DNA from: a virus
Reading direction: 5' to 3' (one strand)
IMG/VR virus record: IMGVR_UViG_3300017773_000100
Span: 1-27,753 of that record
DNA length: 27,753 nt
A model generated the notes under the pieces. The model had not been told where the DNA came from. It searched no databases and saw nothing but the letters and a program-made list of their open reading frames with translations. Made by a program: the position numbers and the translations under genes. Shown in pieces: positions 1,087 to 27,753 of the stretch. Within the stretch, counting starts at the first letter, position 1. Every line of letters begins with the position of its first letter.

Positions 1087-1980
1087 ATGGCGAAGAAAAG
1101 TAAATTGGGTGTTCCTTCTGTAGGTGTAGATTCTTTTTTAAAGGATTATTTAGAAAAGAGGAAAAAACCTTCCAGTGATAAAGTTGATTCTGTTACTAAT
1201 TTTGAGTCAAGGATTCAAGACCCTTCAAAGTATATAGTAAATCCAGATGGTAGTACTAGTACTCATAAGATGTTTTCTTTTGAGGCAGGAGGTAAATATT
1301 ATGTTGCACCTGAGATAGCAGAAGATGAGAATGGAAATCTTATACATAGAACAGGTCGAGCAGCAGTAGATCATGCTTTAAGAACAAAAAATTATAAAGA
1401 GTTTGCTACGGATGCAGAAGCAAAGGCTTATGCTGCCGATGGTTATAAGTCAGGAACTCCAATGGAAAGTTTTGAGTACTTAGGCAGGAAAAAGACTGGA
1501 CCTAGTGTAAATTCTTTTTTAAAAACCAGGAATAAAAAAAAGGCAACGTCTTCAGAAGTTTCACCTACTTCGGGTGATCTTTTTTCTAAGTTTAAGGAGA
1601 CTTTACCAGATAATTTAAAATACACTAATGAGAAGGAGTATAATTTAAGGGGTTATTGGGAATCTTTGGGTAGTCCTTCGGAGTTTGATTATAGTCAGCC
1701 TAAAGAAAAAGATGGTTATTATCATGCTTTTAGTAGAAATCCAAGAACAGGAGAGATATTAAAAAAAGAAAATCATCCTACTTTTAATATGGCTATTGAT
1801 AAAGACATAAAATCTGGTTTCTATCCTTATAGAAATAAAAAAACAGGTACGGTTTATACTTTTGACAAAGAGCCTAATCCTAATGATTATGTCAAGTATG
1901 AAAAACCTTTTTCATACTTAGGTCTTAATAGGTCTATCCCTAGTGTAAATGCTTTTTTAAAAACCAGGAATAAAAAATAA
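1087..1980 (+). CDS. Two-module virion-associated-type protein with repeated PSVxxFLK tags
   Basis: The 297 residues are built as tag, module, tag, module, tag. The tag appears at about residues 10-27 (PSVGVDSFLKDYLEKRKK), 139-152 (PSVNSFLKTRNKKK) and 285-297 (PSVNAFLKTRNKK, the very C-terminus). Module one (about 60-122) reads like a small domain common in phage structural and internal proteins, with a KYYVAPEI strand, an AAVDHAL helix and a final F-T-D-x-x-x-A-x-A-Y-A helix. Module two (about 176-275) carries RGYWESLG, then DGYYHAF and ENHPTF, another pattern I associate with phage virion proteins. No catalytic motif is seen. It lies upstream of the packaging genes and 3 bases before the next gene. 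The function is unknown; a packaged or capsid-associated role is an inference from the module types and location. Confidence 0.65.
   Translation: MAKKSKLGVPSVGVDSFLKDYLEKRKKPSSDKVDSVTNFESRIQDPSKYIVNPDGSTSTHKMFSFEAGGKYYVAPEIAEDENGNLIHRTGRAAVDHALRTKNYKEFATDAEAKAYAADGYKSGTPMESFEYLGRKKTGPSVNSFLKTRNKKKATSSEVSPTSGDLFSKFKETLPDNLKYTNEKEYNLRGYWESLGSPSEFDYSQPKEKDGYYHAFSRNPRTGEILKKENHPTFNMAIDKDIKSGFYPYRNKKTGTVYTFDKEPNPNDYVKYEKPFSYLGLNRSIPSVNAFLKTRNKK
1501..1539 (+). repeat. 39-bp repeat, copy 1 (encodes a PSVNSFLKTRNKK tag)
   Basis: This 39-base stretch matches 1939-1977 with a single difference (T here, G there, at the 13th base). It encodes the middle tag of the 297-residue protein in the same frame as the second copy. 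The two tags are almost identical at DNA level, including silent positions, while the modules between them are unrelated, pointing to a recent duplication or gene conversion. Confidence 0.9.
1939..1977 (+). repeat. 39-bp repeat, copy 2 (encodes the C-terminal tag)
   Basis: This is the second copy of the 39-base direct repeat, differing by one base from 1501-1539. It encodes the last residues of the 297-residue protein, directly before its TAA stop, so the tag forms the exact C-terminus. Confidence 0.9.
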
Positions 1981-1983
1981 ATA

Positions 1984-2283
1984 ATGGATAAGATTGATTC
2001 GATAGACAGGCAGCCTATTTTAAATGTTATAGAGCTTATAGTTGCTGGAGGAGGCAAGGGAGTAAATTCTGATTTTGTTTGGCAGGTTGGCAGGGAGTAT
2101 AGTATAGGTAATGGTAGGAGGGCTAGGTGCAGTTCTATTCGTCATGATACTAATTCTTATTTTTTCAATGGTCAATCAAGGTGGACTGTATATGTTGAGA
2201 ATGAGAATGGGGATGAGTGTGCTTTTGTTCACTATGAGAATGCTGAACTTCATATAAAGTGTGACATTCCAAAAATTATTTAA
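1984..2283 (+). CDS. Hypothetical protein, 99 residues
   Basis: I do not recognise a family. The sequence begins with a short helical stretch (about residues 10-22, PILNVIELIVAGG), then looks mostly beta: VWQVGREYSIG, SYFFNGQSRWTVYVENENGDECAFVHYENAELHIKC. It has two Cys (about 77 and 93) but no metal motif, no signal peptide and no membrane helix. It starts 3 bases after the stop of the tagged two-module gene, so the two are surely co-transcribed and probably translationally linked. A 51-base A/T-rich gap with palindromes separates it from the next gene. Being next to virion-type genes suggests a small structural or assembly protein, which is inference only. Confidence 0.65.
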   Translation: MDKIDSIDRQPILNVIELIVAGGGKGVNSDFVWQVGREYSIGNGRRARCSSIRHDTNSYFFNGQSRWTVYVENENGDECAFVHYENAELHIKCDIPKII

Positions 2284-2334: not shown

Positions 2335-3051
2335 ATGGCAATCTCAGTAAAAAGCGTAAGCTTTAAATTAAAAGGTGAAGATCAAAGTGCAGCATCATCA
2401 GATGTAGCAGTTATGTCTAACACAATTGTTTCTGTCGAAGGAACTCAAGATGATTTTACAGTGAAAGTTCCTGTAAATGGATTAGGTTTGAAAGAATTAG
2501 TTGGTACTAACGTATCTTCTAGTGGTAGTATTACTTTATCAGGAGGTATTGGTAACATAACAGCTTTAACAGTTGATGGTGTTCAGATTTTTGATGTTAC
2601 TTCTCCTATAGTAGGTGCAACTCCAGTAGATTTAACTTCTCAAGCTTTTGCTTTAGCAGTAGCGATAAATGATTATACTAGTGTTCCAAACTACACAGCT
2701 TCAGCAGCAGGGGCAGTTGTTACTATTGAAGCAGCAGGATCTGTAGGTACTGGTGCTAATACTAACGCAGTAGTAGGAACAAAGACAGGAGCTTTAACTT
2801 TAACTGCTGTTGATTTTTCAGGTGGTACAAACGCTATGTCAGTTTTTATAACAGCAGCAGGTACTATTTTTTCTTTGCCTTTACTGGCAGGAGGTTCAGT
2901 AAACTTAAACGCTTATGGTGTTAGAAGTGTAGTTCCTACTGCAACAGGAAGTAGTGTTTATTATTCAGATGAGTTTGGAGTATTTGTAAATGTTTACGAA
3001 TCAAGTTCAACGGTAGCACAGGTTAAAACTTTGATAAACGCATTGGTTTAA
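2335..3051 (+). CDS. Beta-rich structural protein, likely abundant decoration or fibre-type protein
   Basis: The 238-residue product has almost no charged helices and is rich in Gly, Ser, Thr, Val and Ala, as in phage decoration and fibre proteins. Residues about 63-167 form a module (SGSITLSGGIGNITALTVDG ... AINDYTSVPNYTASAAG ... ) that is repeated in the 623-residue fibre-like protein at 14030-15901 (AINAYVSTPEYTASASG there). The C-terminal part (about 168-238) contains GTIFSLPLLAGGSVN, GVRSVVPTATGSSVYYSD and a last helix, a pattern I have seen in small phage proteins without a known function. It stands alone between its own A/T-rich leader and a strong terminator, and it uses GCA/ACA/GGT codons like the capsid gene, so high expression is likely. 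Exact role unknown. Confidence 0.7.
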   Translation: MAISVKSVSFKLKGEDQSAASSDVAVMSNTIVSVEGTQDDFTVKVPVNGLGLKELVGTNVSSSGSITLSGGIGNITALTVDGVQIFDVTSPIVGATPVDLTSQAFALAVAINDYTSVPNYTASAAGAVVTIEAAGSVGTGANTNAVVGTKTGALTLTAVDFSGGTNAMSVFITAAGTIFSLPLLAGGSVNLNAYGVRSVVPTATGSSVYYSDEFGVFVNVYESSSTVAQVKTLINALV

Positions 3052-3205: not shown

Positions 3206-3568
3206 ATGAAAAGACCAAAGATTACAGACAGTAAGGCTTCTAAGTATGTAGATTACTTAGAGGATAAGTTAAAGGGTTTTGAGATCGGTTCTATAGAGGC
3301 TGAGTCTTATTTATCTTTAAAGAATTTCATTTCTCAGGGCAATGCTTTATTGGCTAAGATTAAGTTTGATGGTAGTGAGTTGGGCGATAAGGATGACAAG
3401 CAGATAGAGAGGGGATTAAAGTTTGCAGATAAGATGTTGGATCACAATTCTGCTCTTCGTGATTTATTTGAGAAGGTAGGAGGGGAGAAGATTAAGGAGT
3501 TAGAGAGTAGGACTTATGAGAAGAAGGTAGCTTCGAGTTATGAGGCAGCTATGCCAGAGAGGAAATGA
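3206..3568 (+). CDS. Small helical protein before TerL, candidate small terminase subunit
   Basis: The 120-residue product is charged and predicted mostly helical: SKASKYVDYLEDKLKGFEIG, an ESYLSLKNFISQGNALLAKI helix, then GLKFADKMLDHNSALRDLFEKVGGEKIKELESRTYEKK as a long amphipathic or coiled helix (about residues 70-107). It overlaps TerL by the 4-base ATGA, so the two are translationally coupled. Small terminase subunits usually sit directly before TerL, are of about this size, and combine an N-terminal DNA-binding part with a helical oligomerisation part. No clear helix-turn-helix is seen here, so the terminase role rests on position, size and helical character. It could instead be another packaging accessory protein. 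Confidence 0.55.
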   Translation: MKRPKITDSKASKYVDYLEDKLKGFEIGSIEAESYLSLKNFISQGNALLAKIKFDGSELGDKDDKQIERGLKFADKMLDHNSALRDLFEKVGGEKIKELESRTYEKKVASSYEAAMPERK

Positions 3569-5646
3569 GGAAACGCAAAACGCTATCTCCTTCGGCAATG
3601 TTACCATCAGAATTTGAGAGGGAGCGAGAGATTAGGTTAAGTGGTGTTTTGGAATATACTATTACTTTGCCAGAGCCACCTTCTTATAAAAAGATAGCAG
3701 GTTGGAATCAGAACATTAATAATCAGAGGTGGAAGATCCCTAGTGATATATTGAGTCAAAAGGAGTTTGAGGCTTTAGACTTTGATGATCAGGTTATTTA
3801 TTTAAAGAAGATTACTAAGCGTAGGACTGAGGGTTATTGGTTTTACAATCATGGGAACATAGAGTATTTGACAGGGGATCATTATTTTTACTTAGCTCAT
3901 TGGAGGATAGATGGTATTGTACCTTATTGGAAGGATTCGGATTCCACTTTTTTTTACATAGAGAATCATTGTAAGTTTTTGGAGAACAGTTTAGGTTGGA
4001 TTCTTGTTACTAATCGTAGGGATGGTAAGACGGGTAGGGCTTGTTCTCTTATGTATAATAACATTACTTTACAGTATGATGCCAATGGTGGTATTCAGAG
4101 TAAGACTGGTGCAGATGCTAAGAAGATTTTCAGGAAGTTAATGTTATCTTGGCAGAAGTTGCCAGCATATTTAAAGCCTGTAGATGTTGGTGAGTCAGCT
4201 CCAAAGGCTTCTTTAGTTTTTGCAGAGCCAGCAAAGAGGAGTACTAAGGGAGCTAAGAAGGAGTACCGTACTGTTCTTAATTCTATGATAGATCATGGTC
4301 CAGCTACTGATACTCATTATGATGGTGATAAGATGAAGTATTATTATGATGATGAATTTGGTAAGACTGTAGAGGAGAATGTTTATGAGAGGTGGTTGAT
4401 TGTTAAGGAGTGTTTGGTTCAGGGTAGTACTGTTATAGGAAAGTCTATTCATACTACTACGGCAGAGGAGATGGAAGAGAAGGGTGGAGCGAATGCTAAG
4501 AAGTTGTGGGATGAGAGTAATTTACCTTTGGCTATTTCTAAGGGTAGGAATACAACTCCAACAGGATTGCTTCGTTGGTTTAAGCCAGCTCTTTTTGGTT
4601 TAGAGGGTTTTGTAGATGAGTATGGTTATAGTGTTGTTGAAGATCCTGAGAAGCCTGTTATGGGTATCCATGGAAAGGTTATAGAGTTTGGTTCTAGGAG
4701 TTATATTAACAAAAGGAGATTAGGATTAACTGGTTCTGCATTGGCAGGTGAGAAGAGGAAGTATCCTTTAACTATTGATGAGGCTTTTATTGAGGAGGGT
4801 AAGTTGAGTCCTTTTGACGTTATAAAGTTGAATGATCAGGTTAGTTATAATTCTGAGACTAATGGTATAGTTGTTACGGGAAATTTTGTTTGGTTAGATC
4901 AGGAGAAGACTGAGGCTGTTTGGCAGCCTACGGAATCAGGTCGTTGGAAGCAGTGTTGGTTACCTCATCCTAAAGATAGGAATAAGAAGATTTTATCTGG
5001 TAGACAAAGGAAGCCAGGGAATTATACTACGATAGTTTCTGGTTGTGATCCATTTGACCATAAGATAACTACAGATGGTAAGAAATCTAATGGTGCTAGT
5101 TATATTTTTCGCAAGTTAGATCCTTTAGATTCAGATAGGAGTAATATGTTTGTTTGTGAGTATGTTAATAGACCTGCGACTCCTGAGATGTTTTATGAGG
5201 ATATGGCAAAGCAGAGTGTTTATTATGGTTGTCAGTTATTGTGTGAGAACAATAAGATAGGGTTGATAAGGTGGTTTGAGAACAATGGTTTTGATTCTTA
5301 CTTAATGGAGAGACCTATGGAAACTCATACTGAGTATTCTAGGAAGCGACAATCTGAGAAGGGTATTCCTATGAGTGGTGAGGCAGTTAGGGAGGCTGCT
5401 GTATCTGTTACGGAGTCTTATATTTATGAGAATGTTGGTAGGGATTACAATACAAATGTCATGGGTAAGGTTTATTTTCAGGATTTGTGTAGGTGTTGGT
5501 TAAAGTTCAATCCTCAGAAGTGGACTGACTATGATGAGTTTGTTGGTGCAGCACTTTGTTTGTTTGCAGCGAGGAGTTATAGACCTCAAAAAAAGCCTAG
5601 AGGAAAAAAGAAATTCATTAAGACTTACAGAAAAAGGAGAAAATAA
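3565..5646 (+). CDS. terL: Terminase large subunit (packaging ATPase and nuclease)
   Basis: The 693-residue length and motifs fit a phage large terminase, which pumps DNA into the procapsid through the portal and cuts the concatemer. Residues 147-157 (VTNRRDGKTGR) are the Walker A-like loop with the GKT core; residues 258-265 (KYYYDDEF) are Walker B with its acidic pair; TTTAEEM at about 297-303 is in place for the coupling motif. The C-terminal RNase H-like nuclease shows its acidic residues at D495 (VSGCDP), E561 (LLCENN) and D657 or D655 (TDYDEF). The tail is strongly basic. It starts inside the stop of the preceding gene (ATGA). Lys and Arg are written almost only as AAG and AGG, unlike genes further right. 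The call is firm. Confidence 0.93.
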   Translation: MRKRKTLSPSAMLPSEFEREREIRLSGVLEYTITLPEPPSYKKIAGWNQNINNQRWKIPSDILSQKEFEALDFDDQVIYLKKITKRRTEGYWFYNHGNIEYLTGDHYFYLAHWRIDGIVPYWKDSDSTFFYIENHCKFLENSLGWILVTNRRDGKTGRACSLMYNNITLQYDANGGIQSKTGADAKKIFRKLMLSWQKLPAYLKPVDVGESAPKASLVFAEPAKRSTKGAKKEYRTVLNSMIDHGPATDTHYDGDKMKYYYDDEFGKTVEENVYERWLIVKECLVQGSTVIGKSIHTTTAEEMEEKGGANAKKLWDESNLPLAISKGRNTTPTGLLRWFKPALFGLEGFVDEYGYSVVEDPEKPVMGIHGKVIEFGSRSYINKRRLGLTGSALAGEKRKYPLTIDEAFIEEGKLSPFDVIKLNDQVSYNSETNGIVVTGNFVWLDQEKTEAVWQPTESGRWKQCWLPHPKDRNKKILSGRQRKPGNYTTIVSGCDPFDHKITTDGKKSNGASYIFRKLDPLDSDRSNMFVCEYVNRPATPEMFYEDMAKQSVYYGCQLLCENNKIGLIRWFENNGFDSYLMERPMETHTEYSRKRQSEKGIPMSGEAVREAAVSVTESYIYENVGRDYNTNVMGKVYFQDLCRCWLKFNPQKWTDYDEFVGAALCLFAARSYRPQKKPRGKKKFIKTYRKRRK

Positions 5647-5696: not shown

Positions 5697-8081
5697 ATGA
5701 GTAACGGAAATTCTATCAACACAAGCAAAAATTATCCATTCCCTAACTTGATGGCTACCCCAGAGGTTAAGAAAGAAAAGGGCTATGGTTTAGCATTCGC
5801 TAAGGCGATGTATGGTAAGTATATAAATGAGGACTACTCGATTTACAATAGAATATCTAGATTTGTAGAGAATCGAAAGTATGCTGAGGGTATGCCAAGC
5901 ATAGAGAAGTTTAAGGATCAATTGGACTTAAATGGAGATTCTTCTTATTTGAACTTAGACTTTCAATCGGTTTCTGTTATTCCTAAGTTTGTTAATTTGC
6001 TTGTTGGTGAGATGATTAATCAGGAGTTTGAGATTCAGGCAGAAGCTATGGATGAGGGCTCTATGAAGAAGTACGAGGAGGAGAAGGCTGCTATATATGC
6101 TAATATGTTGATGAAGGATTTCTCTGATCAGATGGAGCAGATGACTGGTTTTGGTTTAGTTGATAAGAGCAAGCCTGTTCCAAAAGACATAGAGGAGGCT
6201 AATATTCTTATAGAGACTACTTTAAAGCAGAGTGTTGAGTTGGCTATGGAGGTTGCGATTAAGTTTGTAAACAATAGCAATAATTACGACACAGAGATTA
6301 AGGAGAGGTTGATTAGGGATTTAATAGTTATAAAGATTTGTGCTACTCGTAGATATTTCGATGAGGCTAAGAACATACGAATGCGTTATGTAGATCCAGC
6401 TAATTTAATTTTACCTTACACTAAAGACCCTTATATGAGGGATCTTCCTTATAGTGGTGAGGTTATTAAGATGGGCTTTAATGAGTTTGTTGAATTAACA
6501 AAGGGTCAGTTTACTGATGAGGAGATAGCTAATATTTCTAAGATGGTTGGTAAGCGAAACGCTGTAAATAATCTTAATTTACGTGAAGAAAACGGCAGGT
6601 ATTATAATAGTTCTTGGAATGGTACTTACGGCTCTGATGATTTTTATATTACTGTTGTTGATTTCGAGTTTAGGTCTAATAATTTCGACCTTACTTATGA
6701 GAAAAAATACAAGAGTGATAACAAGTATTTTTTAAATCAGAAGAGTACAGGTTATAAGCCTAGTAAATATTCAAAAAGCAAGAGGGAGGTTTTCAGTAAG
6801 AACATCCAGGTGATGTATGAAGGTCTTTGGGTTGTTGGTACTGATTATATTGCTAATTATGGTTTAGCAGAGAATATGACTAGACCAAAGAGGAATGGAG
6901 CTTATTCTAATGAGGTTTACAGTAGGTATTCTATTGTAGCTCCAAATATCTATGATATGACTAATAAGTCTATAGTAGAGAGTATGATTCCTCACGATGA
7001 TCAGATTGAATTATCATATTTAAAGTTACAGCAGGCAATGATTAAGGCTAGACCTTCAGGGGTTGCTGTAGATGCTTCAGCTTTGGAGGATGTTCTTCAT
7101 GGTAGGGGAGAGGAGTTTTTAGACCCTATGGAGATTGTAGAGATTTTTGATCAAACGGGTAATATTTATTACAGGAATGAGTCTCCTGAGTTTGGTGGTT
7201 CTTACAACACTCAACCTATTAGGGAGTTAGCAAATGGTTTATCTGCTAATGCTTTAAATTTCGTAGCTATATACAATCACAATTTAGAGATGATAAGGCA
7301 TATAACTGGAATTAATGAGGCTAGAGATGGTACTACACCTTCTTCAAAGGCTTTACCAGGTGCACAGAAGATGGCTGTTAATATGAGTCGTAATGCTACT
7401 AGATTTTTAAATGAGTCTTATCTTAATATTTTCAAGCGTAATTCTGAGGGTATTGCAGTTATGATTCAGTTAAAAGCTATGGGTGATGGTTTAAAAGGTT
7501 TTGAGTTAGCTTTAGGGAAAGAAATAGTTGATGTTATTAACATAGTAAAGGATTTATCTTTTGCAGAGTTAGGTATTAATATTGTACCTCTTCCAGATTC
7601 TGAGGAGAGAGCTTATTTAGAAGGTTTAATAGAAAGGGCTATAAGTGTAGGTTCTATAGAATTGGAAGATGCTATGGAAATAAGAGATGTTTCTAAAGTT
7701 AATATAAAGAAAGCGACACATTTATTAAAGAAAACCCGTAAGGACAAACAAGAGCAAGCACAAAAAGCTGCTGAAGCTAATACACAGGCTCAATCACAGG
7801 CACAAGGTCAACAGGCTATGCAGCTTAAGGAGTTGGATATGCAACTAAAACAGATGGAGCATGAGCAAGCGATGCAGTTGCAGGCAGACAAGTATGCTAG
7901 AGAGATGGAGTTAGCTAAGGTTAATGGAATGGTTAAAGGAGAGGTAGAGATGATTAAGGGAGATGAGAAGTTGGAGCAGATAAGTGCAGCATTAGATGCT
8001 AATTTAGATGACTCTAAAGGCAAGGGTGCTCCTCAACCAAGAATCTTTTCAGGTATAAAAAACACTGAAAAACTTGATTAA
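5697..8081 (+). CDS. Portal protein
   Basis: The 794-residue product sits between TerL and a scaffold-like and capsid gene, the standard portal position. Its length, the N-terminal helical region with FVENRKYAEG (about residues 56-65) and SVIPKFVNLLVGEMINQEFEI (about 93-113), and the central ANGLSANALNFVAIYNHNLEMIRHITGINEARDG-type region followed by SSKALPGAQKMAVNMS fit portal proteins of Bacteroidota podoviruses including crAss-like phages. Portals form the twelve-subunit ring at one capsid vertex through which DNA passes. The C-terminal ~90 residues (about 676-765) are Gln/Glu/Lys-rich and predicted to be a long coiled coil, which would extend into the capsid interior as a barrel. A T-rich 50-base gap separates it from TerL. 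Confidence 0.88.
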   Translation: MSNGNSINTSKNYPFPNLMATPEVKKEKGYGLAFAKAMYGKYINEDYSIYNRISRFVENRKYAEGMPSIEKFKDQLDLNGDSSYLNLDFQSVSVIPKFVNLLVGEMINQEFEIQAEAMDEGSMKKYEEEKAAIYANMLMKDFSDQMEQMTGFGLVDKSKPVPKDIEEANILIETTLKQSVELAMEVAIKFVNNSNNYDTEIKERLIRDLIVIKICATRRYFDEAKNIRMRYVDPANLILPYTKDPYMRDLPYSGEVIKMGFNEFVELTKGQFTDEEIANISKMVGKRNAVNNLNLREENGRYYNSSWNGTYGSDDFYITVVDFEFRSNNFDLTYEKKYKSDNKYFLNQKSTGYKPSKYSKSKREVFSKNIQVMYEGLWVVGTDYIANYGLAENMTRPKRNGAYSNEVYSRYSIVAPNIYDMTNKSIVESMIPHDDQIELSYLKLQQAMIKARPSGVAVDASALEDVLHGRGEEFLDPMEIVEIFDQTGNIYYRNESPEFGGSYNTQPIRELANGLSANALNFVAIYNHNLEMIRHITGINEARDGTTPSSKALPGAQKMAVNMSRNATRFLNESYLNIFKRNSEGIAVMIQLKAMGDGLKGFELALGKEIVDVINIVKDLSFAELGINIVPLPDSEERAYLEGLIERAISVGSIELEDAMEIRDVSKVNIKKATHLLKKTRKDKQEQAQKAAEANTQAQSQAQGQQAMQLKELDMQLKQMEHEQAMQLQADKYAREMELAKVNGMVKGEVEMIKGDEKLEQISAALDANLDDSKGKGAPQPRIFSGIKNTEKLD

Positions 8082-8099
8082 TAGAGAAAATTTATTAAA

Positions 8100-8124
8100 T
8101 TTAGAATTAATTAAAATTAAATTA
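8100..8124 (+). promoter_or_regulatory. 25-base identical leader, copy 1 (before the scaffold-like gene)
   Basis: The 25 bases at 8100-8124 (starting TTTAGAATTA and ending TTAAATTA) are identical to 11041-11065. Both copies end 2 bases before the ATG, and the bases from there on (NAATGG) match too. The copies are nearly 3 kb apart and precede unrelated proteins, so the element belongs to expression control rather than to gene duplication. A/T-rich leaders promote translation in Bacteroidota, where Shine-Dalgarno sites are rare. Confidence 0.6.
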
Positions 8125-8126
8125 TA

Positions 8127-9257
8127 ATGGGATTAGAAGATTTTTTATCGTCACAAACAGGCGAAGATATTGTTTTAACAGATTCAAAAGAAGAGTCTGT
8201 AGACAAGCCAGAGGTTGCAGAAACGGAAGCTTCAGCAACTGAAGAGCCTACTTCTGAGGAAGCTGTTGATAGTTCTGAAGAGAACAAAGCAGAAAAAACG
8301 GAAGAAACGGAAGAAACAGAGAAGGTAGATTCTCCTACTGCTTCTTCTTTTGAGGAAATGTGGGCAGAGAGAATGGGCGAGAAGTATGGGAAGTTGGAAG
8401 ATTTCGATGACCATTATAGTTCTTTGAAAACAAAATCAGAACAAGAAAGATACGAGGATAAGTATTCTGAAGAATCTAGAGATAGGTTAGATAAGTTGCT
8501 AGAATCAGGTACTTCTTGGGATAAAATAAAAGAGATAGCGAGTGTTCAAACTTTAGATGTTGAAAAATTAACTGGTAGACAAGCTATGGCGAAAGCTTTA
8601 GAATTAGACCAGGGTTTAACAAGAGCAGAAATCGAGAATGAGCTTTATGACTACGATCAATTAAAGAATGTAGACTTAGATGACTTAGATGATAGAGAGC
8701 TTATTAAACACAATTCAGATTTAAGCAAGTTCGCACGTTTAGAAAGAGAATCAAAATCTTATCTTTCAGAGTTAAAACAGGATAAAAGGTTTTCCCTCCC
8801 TGAGTTAGCTAAAAAAGAGGAAGTTTCAGAAGAGACTTTAAAAGCTCAGGAGAAGATGAGAGAAGATGCAATACAGGCTTACGAAACTGATGTTAGTAAT
8901 CAGGTTAGTTCATTAAACAATTTAGACATTAAAATCGGAGAGAAAGATGTCTTTAAGTATGAATTAACTAAAGAAGACAAGCAGGCAGTCGAAAGTCAAA
9001 TGAAAGGGGTTAATAATTATTACACCAATTTCATGAATGATGGTAAGTTAGATATGAAATCTATGTCAGAAACTCTGGCAAAAGGTTTAGTATTTGATAA
9101 AGCTATCAAGGCAGCTCTAGAGAGTCAGTCAAATGCAGGAGAAGAGGCAGCAGTGAAGAAGATCAACAACACTAATTTCGATGCTAAATCAACTGCTCCA
9201 GACACTTCAGGTATGTCGGCAATGCAGCAAATAGCTGCGAAATATAGAGATGATTAA
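8127..9257 (+). CDS. Probable capsid scaffolding protein
   Basis: The 376-residue protein lies between portal and major capsid genes. Residues about 10-75 are extremely acidic and low-complexity (runs of Glu, Ser, Thr), and the rest is highly charged and helical: SSLKTKSEQERYEDKYSEESRDRLDKLL, ELAKKEEVSEETLKAQEKMREDAIQAYETD. It ends with GMSAMQQIAAKYRDD, a short amphipathic helix of the kind scaffolds use to contact capsid subunits. Position, acidity and helical character match phage scaffolds, which guide capsid assembly and then leave. No protease catalytic motif is visible, so a fused maturation protease is unlikely. It starts 2 bases after the shared 25-base leader, and its stop is 18 bases before the capsid gene. 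Confidence 0.72.
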   Translation: MGLEDFLSSQTGEDIVLTDSKEESVDKPEVAETEASATEEPTSEEAVDSSEENKAEKTEETEETEKVDSPTASSFEEMWAERMGEKYGKLEDFDDHYSSLKTKSEQERYEDKYSEESRDRLDKLLESGTSWDKIKEIASVQTLDVEKLTGRQAMAKALELDQGLTRAEIENELYDYDQLKNVDLDDLDDRELIKHNSDLSKFARLERESKSYLSELKQDKRFSLPELAKKEEVSEETLKAQEKMREDAIQAYETDVSNQVSSLNNLDIKIGEKDVFKYELTKEDKQAVESQMKGVNNYYTNFMNDGKLDMKSMSETLAKGLVFDKAIKAALESQSNAGEEAAVKKINNTNFDAKSTAPDTSGMSAMQQIAAKYRDD

Positions 9258-9275
9258 TTATAAAAAACAAAAAAA

Positions 9276-10694
9276 ATGGCTTTAGCTTTTCAAGGTGGTG
9301 CATTCGGTAGCACTACAGATTATAACTTTATTACGTCTTTGGACTTACACAAACCAGAGTACGATACAGAATTAACGGAGCGTTATGGAGACCAGAACTT
9401 ATCTGGATTCTTAACGATGATTGGTGCAGAAAAAGGTGTTTCATCTTTAGAGTACAATCACTTCGAGGAAGAAAGAATTTATCCTAAAATTAAGGTTGCA
9501 GCAGCAGCAGCAGGTGTAGCAAACACAGCAAAAGCTTTAACTTTACAAGCTGCTTCTACAATATCTATTCCTAATGCTGCTTCTCCTTATATAGCAGCAG
9601 GTAATAAACAATTTGTTACCCCTAGGGATAATGACTTAATTATGATTAAGCCTTTTACAGGAACAGCTTCTTCAGGTACTTACGTTAAAGCAATAGTATC
9701 AGCAGTTGATAAAGCAGCAGGTACTTTCTCAGCTACTCCAATTATTTTAGGTGAAGCTATTCCACAGGTAGCAGCAGGTACGGAAATCGTAATATACGGT
9801 AACGCAGCAGGTGAAGGATCAGGACAGCCAGAGGCTAGAATTTCAAGAACTGTTAAGTACACTAACAACCTTCAAACTATAAAGGAAACTTACGAGATTA
9901 CAGGTACTGAAAAGAACATTGTAACTTGGATTGACTTTAAAGGTAAGAATGGTGAGAAAGGAAGAGTTGCTAAGTTAAAAGGTGAGTCTGATACTTACAA
10001 GAGATTTATGACTGCAAAAGAGCTTACTCTTTTAGTTGGTGATAAATTAACTAACACAACTGTAGGTAATACTTTTGCAACAGCAGGTACTCCATTAGCT
10101 TTAACAGAAGGTTTAATTCCTTTCGTTTTATCTCAAGGTAACACAAGTAACTACTCTGTAGGAACAGGATGGGATAAGCAAAAAGCTGAATCTTTAGTTA
10201 AGACTTTAGACAAGCAAAAAGGTTCTAAGAAGAACTTAATGCCATGTGGTATTAACTTATCTATGCAGATTGATGATACTTTAGGAGATTATTCTAACGA
10301 TGGTCAAATCCAGTACGGATCTTATGACTTTGGTTCTGATGCTTCTAGAAACTTCCAATTTTCTTCTTTTAAGTATGGTAACTATATTTTTGACAAGAAG
10401 ACTTTTGATGTATTCAATGATCTTCAGACTTTAGGTGCAGATGGTTACGGATACCCAGACGAAGGAATGGTTATTCCAATGGATAAGAAAATTGACAAAG
10501 GTTCAAATTCTCAAGTTCAGTCTTTAAGACTTCGTTACTTAGCAGATCCAGAAACAGGAGCTTCATCAGCAAGATCAGAAGTAGTTGATAAGTTTAAAGT
10601 AGATGGTACTGATAAATTCAGTGTATTCTACAAAGCTGATTGTGGTTTTGAAGGTTTCGCAGGAAACAGATTTGCTTATATTAAGAAATCTTAA
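9276..10694 (+). CDS. Major capsid protein
   Basis: The 472-residue product follows portal and scaffold genes and is directly closed by a terminator, as expected for the most abundant virion protein. Its start (MALAFQGGAFGSTTDYNFIT, then TELTERYGDQNLSGFLTMIG) and later parts (KNLMPCGINLSMQIDDTLGDY, FNDLQTLGADGYGYPDEGMVIP, RLRYLADPETG, and a C-terminal FSVFYKADCGFEGFAGNRFAYIKK) read like capsid proteins of Bacteroidota podoviruses, which have the HK97 fold. Residues about 75-190 look like an inserted beta domain (Ala/Gly/Thr-rich strands with VTPRDNDLIMIKPF and AGTEIVIYG). The start is preceded by an A-rich leader with no Shine-Dalgarno site. Ala is written mainly GCA, giving a repeated GCAGCAGGT word. 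Fold assignment is by context and resemblance, not a structure search. Confidence 0.85.
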   Translation: MALAFQGGAFGSTTDYNFITSLDLHKPEYDTELTERYGDQNLSGFLTMIGAEKGVSSLEYNHFEEERIYPKIKVAAAAAGVANTAKALTLQAASTISIPNAASPYIAAGNKQFVTPRDNDLIMIKPFTGTASSGTYVKAIVSAVDKAAGTFSATPIILGEAIPQVAAGTEIVIYGNAAGEGSGQPEARISRTVKYTNNLQTIKETYEITGTEKNIVTWIDFKGKNGEKGRVAKLKGESDTYKRFMTAKELTLLVGDKLTNTTVGNTFATAGTPLALTEGLIPFVLSQGNTSNYSVGTGWDKQKAESLVKTLDKQKGSKKNLMPCGINLSMQIDDTLGDYSNDGQIQYGSYDFGSDASRNFQFSSFKYGNYIFDKKTFDVFNDLQTLGADGYGYPDEGMVIPMDKKIDKGSNSQVQSLRLRYLADPETGASSARSEVVDKFKVDGTDKFSVFYKADCGFEGFAGNRFAYIKKS

Positions 10695-12245: not shown

Positions 12246-14030
12246 ATGTCTTTAATATCAACAAAATTAAATGTAGCTTACTCTTTGGGTACAACACCAG
12301 AGTTTGTCTTTACAGATGTCACAGATTACTCAGCCCAAGTAGGAGTTCAGCTTGCAGATATTACAGGTGTAATAGAAGTTACAGCTCCTAGTGGTATAGT
12401 TTATACGGGTGGATCTCCTGACATTACAGGTAGTGTTTCTAGGATTAATAGCACTACTATATTAATTCCTTTACTAGCCAATGGGAGTCCAGAGGTGGGG
12501 AATTATTCTTTTAAATATACAGCAACTGCTGGACCAGATACTGTTACCTATACGGTTGGATACAACTTTCAATATGTATCACCAACAGGTATCTTAACTC
12601 CTACAGTAGATTGTTTATCTCCAGAGCTAACATCAACAGATGCTACAAACTATTTGTCAGGATCTACAACTCCTTCAGATCAGTTTACTATAACTGGAGT
12701 AGATACGACAGCAAACACTTTTACTATTGCAGGAGAGAAGTCTGGATTGTTTTTAGTAGGTGACACATTTAATATAATAGGATCTACAGTTCATAATGGA
12801 AACTACACAGTAACTTCTGTAAAAATATCAACTACAGGAATAAATACTGAAATAGGTGTTGCTAGTATAACAAACTCTACAGTGGATGGTAAAATCTCCA
12901 CTAAGACAAACACAATTTACTACCCACCAAGTTTAGCACTTGCACCTGTTGTAGGTTATGAGCCAGTTGTAAGTACAAATACTTTTTATAGTCAAACACA
13001 ATCATTTAAAGTAATTACTAAATCTTTTTATGATTTTGGCAATGGTGTTTCAGTTATAGATACTGTATCAGCTAGTTCAGAATTAGATGTAGATTGTGAC
13101 GTAAGATTGTGTGAAGTTTTTTGTTGTATAAATTCTACTTTAAAAGGTTATTTATCTTATAGAGGTGTTAATGATGTTTTAGCAAATCAAGAACTTAATA
13201 AATATATTCTAGCTACTTCTCATTTATCAGCACTAAGACAAGCTTTTGAATGTGGTTATGATAAAGAGGTTAATTCTATTGTTCAAGAAATAATGACGGT
13301 TACTCAGTGTACTCCAGATTGTTCTTGTTCTGACACGACACCTCAACCAATTACAGGATTAGGAGCTGCTAATATAACTGTAGTAAACTCATCAGGTAAT
13401 GGTGTTACTGTAACTCCAAGTACAGTAGGTAATACAACTACATATACTTTAGGTTTATCTCAAGCTGTTTTAAACAGTATAACTGCTGCAACAGCTACAA
13501 GTTCTGTTGTATCTACAGATGGTAGTGTTACTATAACATCTTCAACAGCTTCAGGTAATACGGCTTACGATTTAAGCATACCAGCACCAGCACCAGCAGT
13601 TGCTCCAGTAGAGTTTATGAGTTTAAATGTTGAGTTGGCTATTGTAAATGGTGTTAAAACTTTTACTATAAAAGATCAAGTTATACAAGGTGTTAGTAAT
13701 TTACAAACTCCAACTATTTCTTATAGTACAACAGGAACATCAGGTTTTAATCCTAAAATTACTGTAAGTGGTTTTCAATCTTCTGCTAACAACACTTATA
13801 AAATGGATGTAAGTTCTTATTTTCAAGAGTTTTCTCCATTAGGAGTTCCTTTGTTTGATTCTAATTCAACAGGAACTAGTTTTTCTAGTTACTATTTAGT
13901 TCCAACCTTAAAGGGTAAAAGTTCAGGTTCTTTTTCTTTTGCTCTTTTAGATAAAGATGGAAATGTTACCCAAGGAGGTCTTATTAACTTATACAGTAAA
14001 ATTTACTTTAACATTAAAATATACGAATAA
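12246..14030 (+). CDS. Fibre-like multi-domain beta protein with cysteine cluster
   Basis: The 594 residues read as a chain of beta modules. Residues ~1-110 look immunoglobulin-like (DITGVIEVTAPSG ... GNYSFKYTATAG). Residues ~143-220 (DQFTITGVDTTANTFTIAG ... VGDTFNIIGSTVHNGNYTVTSV) form a small beta domain widespread in phage virion proteins, apparently inserted in a longer region. At ~284-361 lies a Cys-rich helical part: CDVRLCEVFCC, then helices, one more Cys near 336, and CTPDCSCSD, giving at least eight Cys. The end (about 455-594) is again beta, starting after a PAPAPA linker. A head or tail fibre or decoration protein is likely. It opens the tail operon and its TAA overlaps the next ATG (TAATG), so the two are coupled. 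Confidence 0.72.
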   Translation: MSLISTKLNVAYSLGTTPEFVFTDVTDYSAQVGVQLADITGVIEVTAPSGIVYTGGSPDITGSVSRINSTTILIPLLANGSPEVGNYSFKYTATAGPDTVTYTVGYNFQYVSPTGILTPTVDCLSPELTSTDATNYLSGSTTPSDQFTITGVDTTANTFTIAGEKSGLFLVGDTFNIIGSTVHNGNYTVTSVKISTTGINTEIGVASITNSTVDGKISTKTNTIYYPPSLALAPVVGYEPVVSTNTFYSQTQSFKVITKSFYDFGNGVSVIDTVSASSELDVDCDVRLCEVFCCINSTLKGYLSYRGVNDVLANQELNKYILATSHLSALRQAFECGYDKEVNSIVQEIMTVTQCTPDCSCSDTTPQPITGLGAANITVVNSSGNGVTVTPSTVGNTTTYTLGLSQAVLNSITAATATSSVVSTDGSVTITSSTASGNTAYDLSIPAPAPAVAPVEFMSLNVELAIVNGVKTFTIKDQVIQGVSNLQTPTISYSTTGTSGFNPKITVSGFQSSANNTYKMDVSSYFQEFSPLGVPLFDSNSTGTSFSSYYLVPTLKGKSSGSFSFALLDKDGNVTQGGLINLYSKIYFNIKIYE

Positions 14031-15901
14031 TGTCAGTTCAATCAGAATTATCAAAACTAGGCTCAGGGCAGGGTAAGATTTACCTTACTAATGCAAGTGG
14101 AAACCTAACAGGTTTACAGTTTGCAAATGAGCCTATAGGAAGAGCAGCAGCAGAAAAGATGATGTTAATATCATCTCCTGTTACTTCTAATATATCAGCG
14201 ATAGCTACGGTTGTGGTTACGGCAGGAGGAGGAACTATAACTAACTTAACTTATAATTCAGTTTCAGTTTTTAATACTTCTTCAGCAATAACAGGAGCTA
14301 CAACTTCAGATACTGCTACAAACTTAGCTAATGCTATTAATGCTTACGTTAGTACACCAGAATACACAGCTTCAGCTTCAGGAAGTACTGTAGTTGTTTA
14401 TTTAGATCCTGCTCAAGGAGGATTATTGAATGGTTCTGTAGGTACAATATCTGTTTCAGGTACGACAACTGCAACTACTACTAGTTTAGATGGTGGTGTT
14501 GGAACTTCTGATTTAGTAGATAAGCAGGTTGGTTATAAGATGTATTTAAACTCTAGTCCTACTGCACCAGATTTAAGTTTGGTTGGAGCTACAGATATTA
14601 CTACTGGTGTTCTTAGAAAATCAGCATCTACTCCTTTTACTCAAGAAAGTGTTACAATATCTTCAGGAGTTATTTCTCCTTCAAGAGATGGTAATATTAC
14701 AGTTCTTTCAGTAGAAACAGAGGGTTCTATAGCAGCAGATGTTTTGGAGAATATTGAAGCTGGAATTTTTACAGATGGAGACCTCTTAATAATAAGAGGT
14801 GTAAACGCTGCTAGAGTTGTAACGGTTCAAGAGGGTGGTAACATTCAATTGGCTAATAATAGTTCTTTTGCATCGGGCTCTAAAGACAATGTTATTTGTC
14901 TTCAATTTTTTAACGATGGAACACCAACTTGGTTTGAGTCTTTTAGAAGTCCAGGAATTGTTTTATCTGTGGCTAATTTAAGATCATCAGGGATCTCAGA
15001 ACCAGTCCAAGGGGTAAATACTCAAGCAATAACTTTAGGAGGCTCTACAACGACTTTAACAGCAGGTACAAGTAAAGGATATTTAGCATTAACAGGAACA
15101 GGAACTTTAACAGGTTCGGTTTCTTACGGTTTAGCTCCAGGTCTTGTGGATGGTGACACATTTATTATAGATTACAATGGTACTGTAACAATAGCAGGTT
15201 TCTCTATTACATTAATGGGAGTTGCTTTAACAGCAGAACAAGCGTTAAAAGGAAATATAGTAGCAAAAGGTGTTTGGGATTCTGCAAATACAAATTGGAT
15301 AGTTTCTTTTATAAGAGATACACAGTTAGTAGATTTAGCAGACAATACTGATTTAGCGTTAAAAGAGAATGCTTTAGGAAATCCTTCATCATCAGGTCAG
15401 ATACTTTCTTCTACATCGGCAGGTGTTAGGTCATGGATTTCAAATAGCACAGATATAGTTCTAAATGGTAATTCTAATACAGTAAGTTCAGCAGCAGGAA
15501 CAGAGACTACTTTAAGAACTATAACAATTCCTGCTAACACTTTAAGTTCTAATAATTCTTCTATAATTGTAAATGCTTTTGGAAACTTTGCTTCTAATGT
15601 TAATACTAAGAATTTAAAGGTTTATTTAGGTGGTACTTTAATAGCTCAGAATGTTCACACTTTAACTCCAAATGGAGTTGCTTTTACTTTAGATGTAAAC
15701 ATTACCTCAGCAGGTTCAGGTACTATTGCAAAGTGTGGTGTTTCTATGAATATAGCAGGAGGTGTTAGCGAAGCAGGTTATGCTCAAGTAGGTTCTATAA
15801 ACCTAACAACCACTTCTTACGATATAACAATAACAGGTCAAGGAGCAGGTTCTAGTGATGTTAATGTTTATGGTTCAATGGCAACTAAATTAATAGTATA
15901 A
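14030..15901 (+). CDS. Fibre-like protein with C-terminal beta-sandwich
   Basis: The 623 residues begin with a short region containing GKIYLTNASGNLTGLQFANEPIGRAA, followed at ~58-160 by the same module seen in the 238-residue protein at 2335 (AINAYVSTPEYTASASG matches AINDYTSVPNYTASAAG). Middle parts (ITTGVLRKSASTPFTQESVTISSG, TLTGTGTLTGSVSYGLAPGL) are Thr/Ser/Gly-rich strands. The C-terminal ~140 residues (TLRTITIPANTLSSNNSSII, NVNTKNLKVYLGGTLIAQN, then GSINLTTTSYDITITGQG) match a beta-sandwich often found at the tip of phage fibres or decoration proteins. A receptor-contacting or capsid-decorating trimer is plausible. The gene is joined to both neighbours by TAATG overlaps, so translation is coupled. 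Whether it belongs to head or tail cannot be told. Confidence 0.72.
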   Translation: MSVQSELSKLGSGQGKIYLTNASGNLTGLQFANEPIGRAAAEKMMLISSPVTSNISAIATVVVTAGGGTITNLTYNSVSVFNTSSAITGATTSDTATNLANAINAYVSTPEYTASASGSTVVVYLDPAQGGLLNGSVGTISVSGTTTATTTSLDGGVGTSDLVDKQVGYKMYLNSSPTAPDLSLVGATDITTGVLRKSASTPFTQESVTISSGVISPSRDGNITVLSVETEGSIAADVLENIEAGIFTDGDLLIIRGVNAARVVTVQEGGNIQLANNSSFASGSKDNVICLQFFNDGTPTWFESFRSPGIVLSVANLRSSGISEPVQGVNTQAITLGGSTTTLTAGTSKGYLALTGTGTLTGSVSYGLAPGLVDGDTFIIDYNGTVTIAGFSITLMGVALTAEQALKGNIVAKGVWDSANTNWIVSFIRDTQLVDLADNTDLALKENALGNPSSSGQILSSTSAGVRSWISNSTDIVLNGNSNTVSSAAGTETTLRTITIPANTLSSNNSSIIVNAFGNFASNVNTKNLKVYLGGTLIAQNVHTLTPNGVAFTLDVNITSAGSGTIAKCGVSMNIAGGVSEAGYAQVGSINLTTTSYDITITGQGAGSSDVNVYGSMATKLIV

Positions 15902-25128: not shown

Positions 25129-27753
25129 ATGAATGAAGAATTTCTTAATCAGCTGTACTTAGAAACAGGAATGGAAAAAGAAGGAATTTCTGAAAGTCAA
25201 TTTTCAGAATTATTGCTAAATAACGAAGAATTAAGGACTACAACTTATGGAGAACTTGGTTTTGAGAAAGAAGGTGTTTCTATTGAAGATTTTAATTCTT
25301 TGTTAGGTTTAAAAAAAAAAGAACCTACTGCTTCAACTTTTTCGGATGGCGAATCACCATCGAAAGAGGTTAATGAAGAGGTTTCTAAGGAGGATGATTT
25401 TAGTGATGTAGTTTTTAAAGAGAATCCTACTCAAAAAGATCTTGAAGATTTTAGCAAGGTTGTATCTGATAAACAAAAAAAAGATAGTTTTAAACCAGTA
25501 GATCAAGATGTTTCTCCTGAGGAAAATATTTGGACTCCTAAAACTCCAGAACTAAAAAAGGTAGAAAAAAAGATAAGTGATTTTCAAAAATCTCCAGAAT
25601 ACAAAACAGGTTTAAGTGAAGATATAAAACAGATAGAATCTAAAGAGTTAAAAGGTGTTGATTATTTAACTATATTAGATGAAGAAGAATATACGGACAA
25701 TTTAGATTTAGGAGAATATAATTTTGCTAATTCTAATAATGTAGAAGATTTTATAAAAAACCAAAAAAGAGAAGTTTTTAAAAAAATAGGCTCAGATCAA
25801 CGCATTCAAACTATAGAAAATTACGCTACTGATATTGAAAATTCAGACCCTAGCTTTACAGATGAAGATGTATTAGAAATGGTTAACTCTAAGGAGTTGT
25901 CAGATATTAATAATTTTGGAATAAATAGATTACGGTTAGATGAAGATCAACAAAAAGAATACAAGGAAGATATATTAAGATTAACAGAATTAAAACAAAA
26001 TAAAAACAAGACAACAGAAGAAAAACTAGAACAATTCGATCTTAGTAAGAAAGTATCTAAATTAAGAGAAAATCAAGACAAGCAGTTTATTAATCCAGAA
26101 ACAGGGCAAATAGATGGTGCTGTTAAAAAAGAAGTTACAGATAAAGCTAAAGTATATTCTAAAGTTTTAAAAACAGATTACGAAAAGTTCTTAGATAAAT
26201 ATAAAGAAGAGTATTACAATATAAAAGGTATAGAAAAAGAGCTTAAAAGAGCTTTAGGTAAAGATGAAATACCTAGTAAGTTTGTGTATGATGCTGGTAA
26301 AAGTGGGTATTTTAGTCCTACAGATAACGAAGAAATCATGTCTGCTTATGCTGTTGGAGGCGAAGAGTTAGCTAAAAAATTAGAGTCTAATTTAAAGAAC
26401 GAAAGAAACAAAATTGAAAATCTTTATGCTGGTTTACAAACTTCAGAAAAAAACTTTATGGCTCTTAATAGAGCTTTGTTATTGAATGAAAATCCTGCTG
26501 CTGTTTCTAGAGGGTTTAAAATGTTAGAAGGAATCCCTATTTTACAAGGTGCAGGTGAAATATTAGTAGCAGGAGGTGAGGCTTTAGCAGAAACTGTAAC
26601 GGGAGATGAGATTGTAACCGATACGGATTACGCTAACACTATTGTTCAACTTGCTAATGAAACAGGAGTTAAGCTTACGGAAGAACAATACGATAGAAGT
26701 AAGTTAAATTTTAGAGAAAAACTAGGTGGTGCTATAGGTACTTCTTTACCTATGATGGCAGAGATAGCTTTTAATGTTCTTGTTACTAAAAACGCAGCAG
26801 CAGGTCTTAAAATTCCAGAATATATATCAAAAATTAAATACCTTCAAAAGAGTCCTAAATTAGCTAAATTTATAGGTCGGGCAATGGAGGCTACTACTCA
26901 GGCTATAGCTTTTGAATTTGCCGAAGGTGGTTCTCTTGCTATGGGTGCAGGTGAATATTACGGAGGTAAACTTGGGGAGAAATTAGTTTCAGCTATAACA
27001 AAAGGAAAAGGAGGTAAGTTCCTGTCTTTTATGGGTAAAGTTTTAGGGGCAGGAACAGCAGGAACAGCAGAAGAATATTCAGGTAATTTTGTAGATGAAG
27101 GATTTAAGCAAGGTTTTTTTACTAAGGAGCAATTTGAAAATACTTTTGGTAGGACTTATGACGAAGCTGTAGACAAGCTCCTTATTACAGCAGTCATGGC
27201 TACAACTATGTCTGGTGGTGCAGAATTAGGTAGTTTCTTACAGGACACTAAGGGTTATTATGAAAGATTAGGAAACACAGAAAATGTCACAGTATTAGAA
27301 GAGCTTATAGAGGCTAATAAAGAGTCTTCTTCATCTGAATCTAAAGGAGAAAGTAAAAATTTAGAATTAAAATTAAAGAAAGAAAAACCTGTAGGAGAAG
27401 AAGAGTTAGTTCCTTTTACTGAAGAAGTGGATCAAGACGGCAAGACTTTCTTAACTTCAGAAGGTGAAACTACAACCGAAAAAGCTATAGAAGAGAAAAT
27501 AACAGAGCCAACTCAAGAACAAATTCAGGAGGATATTGCTAATAATGATTTCGCTACTTTTAAATATGAAGACGAATCATCAGTACCTAAAGAATTAAAG
27601 GAGTACATAAGCTCTAAAGGATCTACTCAAGTAGGGAGAGGTTCTAGTAAAAAGAAATCTGTTAATGTTACCGTTCCTAAATCGTTAGCAAATTACCTCA
27701 ACTCTAAAGCAGAGGCATCTACACAACAAAGTAGTGAAACTACAACTGATACA
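25129..27753 (+). CDS. Giant internal virion protein, partial (5' 875 codons)
   Basis: The frame opens at 25129 (MNEEFLNQLYLETGM) and stays open for 875 codons to the window edge, so only the N-terminal part is here. Residues ~10-62 hold a duplicated short motif, GMEKEGISESQFSELL and GFEKEGVSIEDFNSLL. Residues ~70-440 are highly charged and helical. From about 500 to 720 comes an unusual Gly/Ala-rich amphipathic or hydrophobic region (GAIGTSLPMMAEIAFNVLV; AIAFEFAEGGSLAMGAGEYYGG; FMGKVLGAGTAGTAEEYSG; LLITAVMATTMSGGAELG), then acidic low-complexity sequence. This is like the large ejected proteins of podoviruses that cross or line the host envelope during DNA entry. Any enzyme domain, such as a peptidoglycan hydrolase, would lie beyond this window. 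Start chosen as the first ATG after the previous stop. Confidence 0.7.
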   Translation, partial: MNEEFLNQLYLETGMEKEGISESQFSELLLNNEELRTTTYGELGFEKEGVSIEDFNSLLGLKKKEPTASTFSDGESPSKEVNEEVSKEDDFSDVVFKENPTQKDLEDFSKVVSDKQKKDSFKPVDQDVSPEENIWTPKTPELKKVEKKISDFQKSPEYKTGLSEDIKQIESKELKGVDYLTILDEEEYTDNLDLGEYNFANSNNVEDFIKNQKREVFKKIGSDQRIQTIENYATDIENSDPSFTDEDVLEMVNSKELSDINNFGINRLRLDEDQQKEYKEDILRLTELKQNKNKTTEEKLEQFDLSKKVSKLRENQDKQFINPETGQIDGAVKKEVTDKAKVYSKVLKTDYEKFLDKYKEEYYNIKGIEKELKRALGKDEIPSKFVYDAGKSGYFSPTDNEEIMSAYAVGGEELAKKLESNLKNERNKIENLYAGLQTSEKNFMALNRALLLNENPAAVSRGFKMLEGIPILQGAGEILVAGGEALAETVTGDEIVTDTDYANTIVQLANETGVKLTEEQYDRSKLNFREKLGGAIGTSLPMMAEIAFNVLVTKNAAAGLKIPEYISKIKYLQKSPKLAKFIGRAMEATTQAIAFEFAEGGSLAMGAGEYYGGKLGEKLVSAITKGKGGKFLSFMGKVLGAGTAGTAEEYSGNFVDEGFKQGFFTKEQFENTFGRTYDEAVDKLLITAVMATTMSGGAELGSFLQDTKGYYERLGNTENVTVLEELIEANKESSSSESKGESKNLELKLKKEKPVGEEELVPFTEEVDQDGKTFLTSEGETTTEKAIEEKITEPTQEQIQEDIANNDFATFKYEDESSVPKELKEYISSKGSTQVGRGSSKKKSVNVTVPKSLANYLNSKAEASTQQSSETTTDT

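Follow-up and report, generated by a model that had tools for sequence, protein, structure and literature searches.

An accessory gene ahead of the terminase gene

The window, by which we mean the whole stretch of DNA that was analysed, is one virus record of 27,753 bases and a fragment, with further virion genes besides those for terminase, portal and capsid. On its plus strand, ahead of the terminase, portal and major capsid protein genes, lies an ORF of 297 amino acids in which copies of a short peptide tag alternate with two longer modules:

1087..1983, plus strand: extra segment of 897 bp, that is, one ORF and 3 nt (empty site ...GTCTTT/ATGGATAAG... in the relatives L018, L019 and L020)
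1087..1980, plus strand: accessory ORF, 297 aa, in the order tag 1, module A, tag 2, module B, tag 3 (ORF reading)
1114..1167, plus strand: tag copy 1, aa 10-27, PSVGVDSFLKDYLEKRKK, divergent (sequence reading and repeat comparison)
1198..1449, plus strand: module A, aa 38-121, predicted strands and two helices (homologues and model; block pLDDT 79-91 over aa 61-120)
1501..1539, plus strand: tag copy 2, aa 139-151, PSVNSFLKTRNKK (pattern match; low predicted confidence there)
1573..1899, plus strand: module B, aa 163-271, YNLRGYW...H.f.R.P.TGEILK..HPTF... (homologues)
1939..1977, plus strand: tag copy 3, aa 285-297, PSVNAFLKTRNKK, exact C-terminus, stop codon next (pattern match)
1984..2283, plus strand: following ORF of 99 aa, kept in relatives; delimits the extra segment on its right (comparison with relatives)
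3565..5646, plus strand: terminase large subunit (phrog_6681)
5697..8081, plus strand: portal protein (phrog_6547)
9276..10694, plus strand: major capsid protein (Pfam SU10_MCP; phrog_13704)

Copies 2 and 3 define the tag of this ORF as a lysine-ended peptide, PSVN[SA]FLKTRNKK, which matches twice in the whole window against 0.00 matches expected from shuffles. Two claims of a sequence-only reading of this DNA, that PSVNxFLKTRNKK follows each of two modules and that one copy forms the exact C-terminus, are thus borne out. Its further claim, that a related copy stands at the start of the protein, holds in part: there is such a copy at aa 10-27, but it is weak, as the best repeat spanning module A (copy 1 with copy 2) was equalled in 39 of 400 shuffles. 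Module B lies between copies 2 and 3, an arrangement that places the ORF among proteins that carry at least two copies of one short peptide, either at the N-terminus or on both sides of a module.

At the DNA level, the two clear copies are identical at 38 of 39 nt (1 difference) and are spanned by a 70-nt repeat of 80% identity, and a short stretch directly ahead of the tag, F.YLG, is repeated as well. Because all 12 unchanged residues use the same codons in both copies (P ~2e-4, assuming independent draws from the codon use of this genome), the tag DNA was probably copied recently. Such near-identity favours the main rival to a docking role for the tags, namely that they are a recombination linker, short direct repeats that were left behind by, and promote, the gain and loss of modules and have no part in binding; we consider this unlikely, and both readings may be true.

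The three nearest relatives (L018-L020, terminase 92-94% identical) keep both flanks and lack the ORF: in them, GTCTTT joins ATGGATAAG, the start of the next gene (the 99-aa ORF), directly. The records of 15 terminase relatives in IMG/VR, several of them fragments, gave no convincing match to the ORF; a match in G007 (28% identity, three stops, E 8e-5) was taken as chance. The ORF was likewise not seen in the upstream region of six more distant relatives (L022-L027), and gain is therefore likelier than loss. Terminase matches in the named collection comprised 115 records, none of them reaching 60% identity (68 under Flavobacterium, 23 uncultured, 15 under Cellulophaga and few under other names), from which we infer that the host likely belongs to the Bacteroidota.

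Two side observations concern the neighbouring genes. The six more distant relatives share a conserved ORF of ~200 aa (MRKIVPSVAKELN...HVEIKxxHNQN...; L022:645-1256 and its counterparts in L023-L027) upstream of the 99-aa ORF, which was not seen in the window and which we take to resemble a nuclease. Within the window, two proteins of the virion cluster (2335-3051 and 14030-15901) have, as judged by eye, a common domain of ~75 aa (GGGTITNLTYNSVSVFDT...AINxYxSxPxYTASASG), which is present in the corresponding ORF of L019 and L020 and missing from that of the closer relative L018.

The ORF as a whole matched no Pfam or PHROG family at E <0.1 (best PHROG match E 0.14; none to phrog_770), and 16 pattern stretches for it in IMG/VR yielded 0 confirmed cases. 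The sequence-only reading had proposed to look for the tag on other proteins of this phage and its relatives; the exact tag occurred on no other protein of the window and on no ORF of at least 80 aa in the retrieved parts of 18 other records, so that a docking site held in common with resident proteins is not visible. The tag DNA itself gave 0 stretches in IMG/VR, and the tag region gave one tblastn match in named phages, at E 7. Two degenerate IMG/VR scans for PSV[ND][SA]FLK, which used limited serine and leucine codons, returned 5 and 1 stretches; in these the peptide either fell in a frame with no long ORF or, in two cases, belonged to one unrelated protein (ORFs of 258 and 283 aa in L094 and L097), and they were rejected as tag proteins.

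Two modules with kin in virion proteins

Module A has significant similarity to proteins of named phages over the stretch ...DG..ST...(P)T....F....A..YA... (tblastn E 2e-6 to 2e-4). These are the Pseudomonas phages Littlefix and 98PfluR60PP (both Schitoviridae), CL and CRC2, and Erwinia phage UCB24. IMG/VR added 11 loci, one of them Littlefix again, and further queries reached Roseobacter CRP-738, Salmonella SPN1S and relatives, Proteus V3, Bas106, Citrobacter CVT22, Klebsiella Klyazma and Asterion, Aeromonas 4_4512 and Rhizobium phages. A search of bacterial and archaeal genomes produced 49 pattern stretches, 0 of them confirmed. Wherever the annotation of a module-A protein says more than "hypothetical", it names a head, (minor) structural, capsid and scaffold, DNA transfer or IVP-C-like protein; the module lies inside the DNA transfer proteins of Bas106 and Aeromonas 4_4512 and inside the IVP-C-like protein of Klyazma.

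The module also occurs as a small gene of its own. In Littlefix, 98PfluR60PP, L013 and L014 this gene comes immediately ahead of the terminase gene; in L010 it lies between the portal and scaffold/major capsid protein genes, with one gene of unknown kind in between. The Littlefix gp26 and 98PfluR60PP gp58 proteins consist of module A with neither module B nor a repeated tag, unlike the window ORF. In the SPN1S_0017 head protein (phrog_992, the family of epsilon15 gp15), module A is an insert of ~100 aa that is absent from the 82% identical phiv142-3 protein and from epsilon15 gp15 and precedes a stretch common to phage endolysin/transglycosylase-type families. So clean an insert would suit a recombination linker, but the SPN1S insert has no repeated tag, in which it differs from the window ORF, and no flanking repeat (155/400 shuffles as good).

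Module B shows significant similarity, over H..SR.P.TG.ILK..HPTF, to proteins of the crAss-like phages cr56_1 and cr111_1 (tblastn E 2e-8 and 1e-6), and was found at five loci in IMG/VR, three of which carry nearly the same protein. Its carriers include proteins of 1783 aa (L033) and 797 aa (L034), and L034 holds module A and then module B within one protein, in the order seen in the window. An uncultured Ayaqvirus has module B alone (90 aa), between its capsid-assembly and "minor capsid protein 10" genes. In cr56_1 gp73, two genes after the portal gene, in cr111_1 QOR59206.1 (both Crassvirales) and in L033, module B forms part of a larger protein in which neither module A nor a PSVN tag was seen. 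Separately, the cr56_1 protein (L002:5938-7467) reads through TAG codons and also has an HEMGH zinc-protease-like motif.

The two modules are unrelated to each other, as had been claimed from the sequence: hhalign gave a probability of 0.3 on its scale of 0 to 100 in both tests. MAFFT sometimes aligns them, but with no support from hhalign we rejected the idea that A and B are one ancient repeat.

The structure model of the full ORF, built from 10 sequences, has a mean pLDDT of 55.6. Only module A is modelled with confidence (79-91 in blocks over aa 61-120), and pLDDT falls below 50 at aa 122-204 and 269-297, the regions that hold tags 2 and 3. Low pLDDT is weak evidence for flexibility here, because module B had no homologues in the alignment behind the model; the values would be compatible with flexible tags and disfavour the possibility, raised earlier, that the tag is part of a single fold. 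Among the 50 BFVD matches listed, the best was the 98PfluR60PP module-A protein (E 1.3e-6), the only one at probability 1.00; the next had E 7.6e-4 and probability 0.25. No solved fold in the PDB was matched (phmmer, none up to E 10; best Foldseek E 0.22, with a weak model), and a model of module B (mean pLDDT 56) was set aside as a basis for any fold claim.

By comparison with annotated proteins, modules A and B are mobile pieces found in or beside head, internal-virion and DNA-transfer proteins. This recurrence, together with the placing of the modules beside terminase, portal and major capsid protein genes, argues against taking the ORF for a non-virion, moron-like accessory protein whose modules have some unrelated binding role, a reading that would suit a clean single-gene extra and the small size of several stand-alone module-A genes and to which we give a slim chance. 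This kinship and the neighbouring genes speak for the window ORF as a candidate ejection protein.

Repeated short peptides in other phage proteins

The arrangement of tag, module and tag recurs with other peptides. Module A is flanked on both sides by NPFDQFD in Aeromonas 4_4512 and by NFFDQFD in Proteus V3. Repeats spanning the module could be tested in the 17 of 22 module-A proteins whose flanks were of sufficient length, and the repeat was clear in the Aeromonas and Proteus proteins (0 and 1 of 400 shuffles as good, respectively); the window ORF and Bas106 each stood at 39/400, and the remaining 13 were weaker (44 to 382 of 400). The Aeromonas protein is annotated as a DNA transfer protein, and the Proteus one, annotated as hypothetical, aligns with P22 gp16 over V3 aa 303-722. 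Both resemble the window ORF in having module A between two short-tag copies near the N-terminus, and differ from it in their tag sequence, in a long body that follows and in having no module B. The P22 gp16-type DNA transfer family (phrog_770), matched by the Bas106 and L147 proteins, is not matched by the window ORF. In L007, three FDPDAFL-like tags all lie ahead of module A (382/400 across the module).

Three side observations belong here. A diguanylate cyclase domain (GGDEF; Pfam E 7.6e-19) lies in the L007 protein (5701-9700; 1333 aa), which has module A and the FDPDAFL tags at its N-terminus and is possibly a signalling enzyme injected by the phage. A protein of Vibrio phage D279 (L108:1114-3234) aligns with the Proteus V3 protein and starts with a twin tag, GRNLFAEQ and GRNLFAAQ, without module A. 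An exchangeable N-terminal piece (AWKDVIAS.QYQALAPEQKAQAQEQYFNEVVAPQ; L090, L107 and L111) is found on the DNA transfer proteins of Bas106, g341c and 720R6.

A scan of IMG/VR for NPFDQFD returned at least 120 stretches, against the 5 and 1 for patterns from the PSVN tag with an equal number of fixed bases. All 80 of the loci listed from these stretches have a tagged ORF; in 79 of them the first strict tag is no more than 60 aa from the N-terminus, and 45 carry at least two strict tags. Loosely defined tags number two or more in 58 of the 76 distinct proteins from the listed loci, and in 9 of the 76 a distance of 60-300 aa separates neighbouring tags; tags elsewhere are often spaced only 10-30 aa, with nothing between them. 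The piece between the tags is module A in two loci (L174 and L182), and in two others (L152 and L119) it reads like a putative muramidase. These N-terminal positions and the close spacing without an insert are left unexplained by a recombination linker. The copies also argue against fresh duplication: among NPFDQFD proteins with two exact copies, 21 of 25 pairs differ by 1-4 nt with the peptide kept (differences that are silent by construction, as the pairs were picked by exact peptide), and the Aeromonas and Proteus copies likewise differ at silent sites.

The genes around the NPFDQFD proteins point in part towards DNA ejection. In 4 of 4 loci scanned, the second gene upstream belongs to a DNA-ejection family (phrog_598); six loci were scanned for the gene directly upstream, of which two have phrog_2534 (described as "released from the phage upon host infection"), one has a transglycosylase-like gene and three have a gene whose family is unknown or absent. 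Seven of the tagged proteins themselves were scanned, of which one matched the DNA transfer family (phrog_770) and the other 6 had no match at all. The succession of genes at these loci is that of P22 genes 7, 20 and 16, of which gene 20 ahead of 16 was seen in our data.

The open-access papers searched contain no NPFDQF, PSVNSFLK, DPFAQF or FDPDAFL, and the string FDQFD appears in four papers, with titles that do not concern phages. Within this scope, which leaves most subscription literature outside and a prior description possible, the earlier statement that no described example has this tag agrees with what we found.

The window also holds a resident protein with a repeated tag, near its right end:

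25129..27753, plus strand: start of a giant protein, 875 aa to the window end (ORF reading)
25129..25311, plus strand: head of the giant protein, two copies of a ~28-aa tag, then KKK at 25312-25320 (self-repeat)

Where complete in relatives, this protein is 2231-2589 aa long. Profile scans gave it no family match of known function, and we infer that it is an ejection protein. Its head comes in several kinds: G001 has SLDLSGLDLSDLDLSVL twice, G006 and G011 a PEYGS..KEQL..YGE.W-like peptide twice and G010 FDNSAFEE three times, while G003, G009 and G007 carry variants of the window's kind. The heads of the window protein and seven relatives were self-repeating in 8/8 cases (scores 65-124, each at 0/60 shuffles). 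The controls, 134 other ORFs of at least 200 aa from the same loci, chosen mechanically with homologues included and ORFs cut by contig ends excluded, reached a maximum score of 55, with 5/134 at 0/60 shuffles. The start of L008, a large module-A protein of another phage, is not self-repeating (159/300 shuffles).

Outside this test stands G014, where a twin head, FYQSYDPEAYSEE / FYQSYDPDAYSEE (L085), similar to the FDPDAFL tag of L007, lies ahead of the giant ORF in a different reading frame from the body, and the break falls close to an A-run at KKK; it may reflect an assembly error, a broken gene or frameshifting.

Heads do not align even where bodies do, as in the window and G001 proteins (63% identity from aa 63/57) and those of G009 and G006 (73% identity from aa 64/70). 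Differing heads over conserved bodies, like twin tags identical at 50/51 nt in G001 and 24/24 in G010, would again fit a linker. The differing heads also fit a further reading, in which the head elements are the first to exit the virion and make contact with a host or prophage exclusion factor, so that quick replacement between relatives would be an escape. According to PMC10883804, changes in P22 gp16 and gp20 evade SieA exclusion, and few genes of the P22-like assembly cluster vary as much as those for the two proteins, which favours such an escape; the same paper places the gp16 changes in its C-terminal portion (G532, P546), which speaks against it. The window's C-terminal and between-module copies, moreover, need not exit first, and we regard this reading as improbable.

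Docking, processing and the meaning of a repeated tag

The sequence-only reading had offered two roles for the tag, a docking or sorting signal and a processing site. Of these, docking is the better supported by sequence comparison. Processing in the prohead, with release of two products, would agree with tags that lie at the edges of modules and whose last residues are basic, and with the KKK that directly follows the giant-protein head in 8/8 cases. Yet no protease family appeared among 20 proteins scanned from the window (a fragment), a cut at the copy that is the exact C-terminus would release nothing, and tag copies elsewhere lie only 10-30 aa apart; with, in addition, no [LI]xE site to be read in the three tag copies, we consider processing very improbable. 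The capsid targeting sequence of phage T4, a short peptide that brings proteins into the phage head, is single and N-terminal and is removed by the prohead protease at [LI]xE. The window's tags differ from it both in lacking this motif and in their positions (aa 10-27, 139-151 and 285-297), which include internal and C-terminal ones.

Partial support thus goes to the tags as docking or sorting elements of a virion-interior protein, which is the best supported reading because head, internal-virion and DNA-transfer proteins contain the modules or have them as neighbours and because the layout of tag, module and tag recurs in proteins of the DNA-transfer type. For the window ORF we propose, at a little under an even chance, a small accessory internal-virion (cargo) protein in which two mobile modules are combined with repeated tags that recruit or dock it. 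What is observed here is the repeat, its recent copying, the identity of the modules, the accessory status and the recurrence of the layout. The protein would be packaged into the head, where each of the probably flexible tags could serve as a weak address signal, and together they could attach the protein to a partner in the virion (the scaffold, the portal or a further ejection protein); their repetition would raise avidity, and the repeated DNA would allow modules to be gained and lost. A precedent for docking to a virion partner comes from P22, where the N-loop of the scaffold is suggested, in the part of PMC12005531 cited here, to help gp16 assemble into the head. The podovirus cargo protein gp45 of PhiCrAss001 binds the portal and the tail barrel through separate segments, a likeness by description, and these segments, unlike the window tags, are not presented as repeated tags in the part of the source that we cite (PMC10172136).

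The same layout in many other phages suggests that injected phage proteins bear a kind of address tag not described before. In the widest form of this idea, which we find doubtful but worth stating, short, exchangeable, repeated address tags would direct the entry of ejection proteins and add-on modules into the virion of tailed phages, or their exit from it. Each phage would pair its tag with a partner, a swap of tags would rewire loading, and the window gene would be a plug-in cargo that bears its own tag three times. The class would take in NPFDQFD, NFFDQFD, GRNLFAxQ, FDPDAFL, FDNSAFEE, SLDLSGLDLSDLDLSVL, TGLEKEGVTLEDF, PSVNxFLKTRNKK and others.

How podoviruses select ejection proteins for packaging is, in our judgement, poorly known outside a few models. 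If the docking reading is true, a portable repeated tag would make this choice directly testable and would ease the search for ejection proteins and for injected cargo in phages not yet characterised. It could, further, be used to load other proteins into phage heads, and it would account for some of the mosaicism known from ejection proteins.
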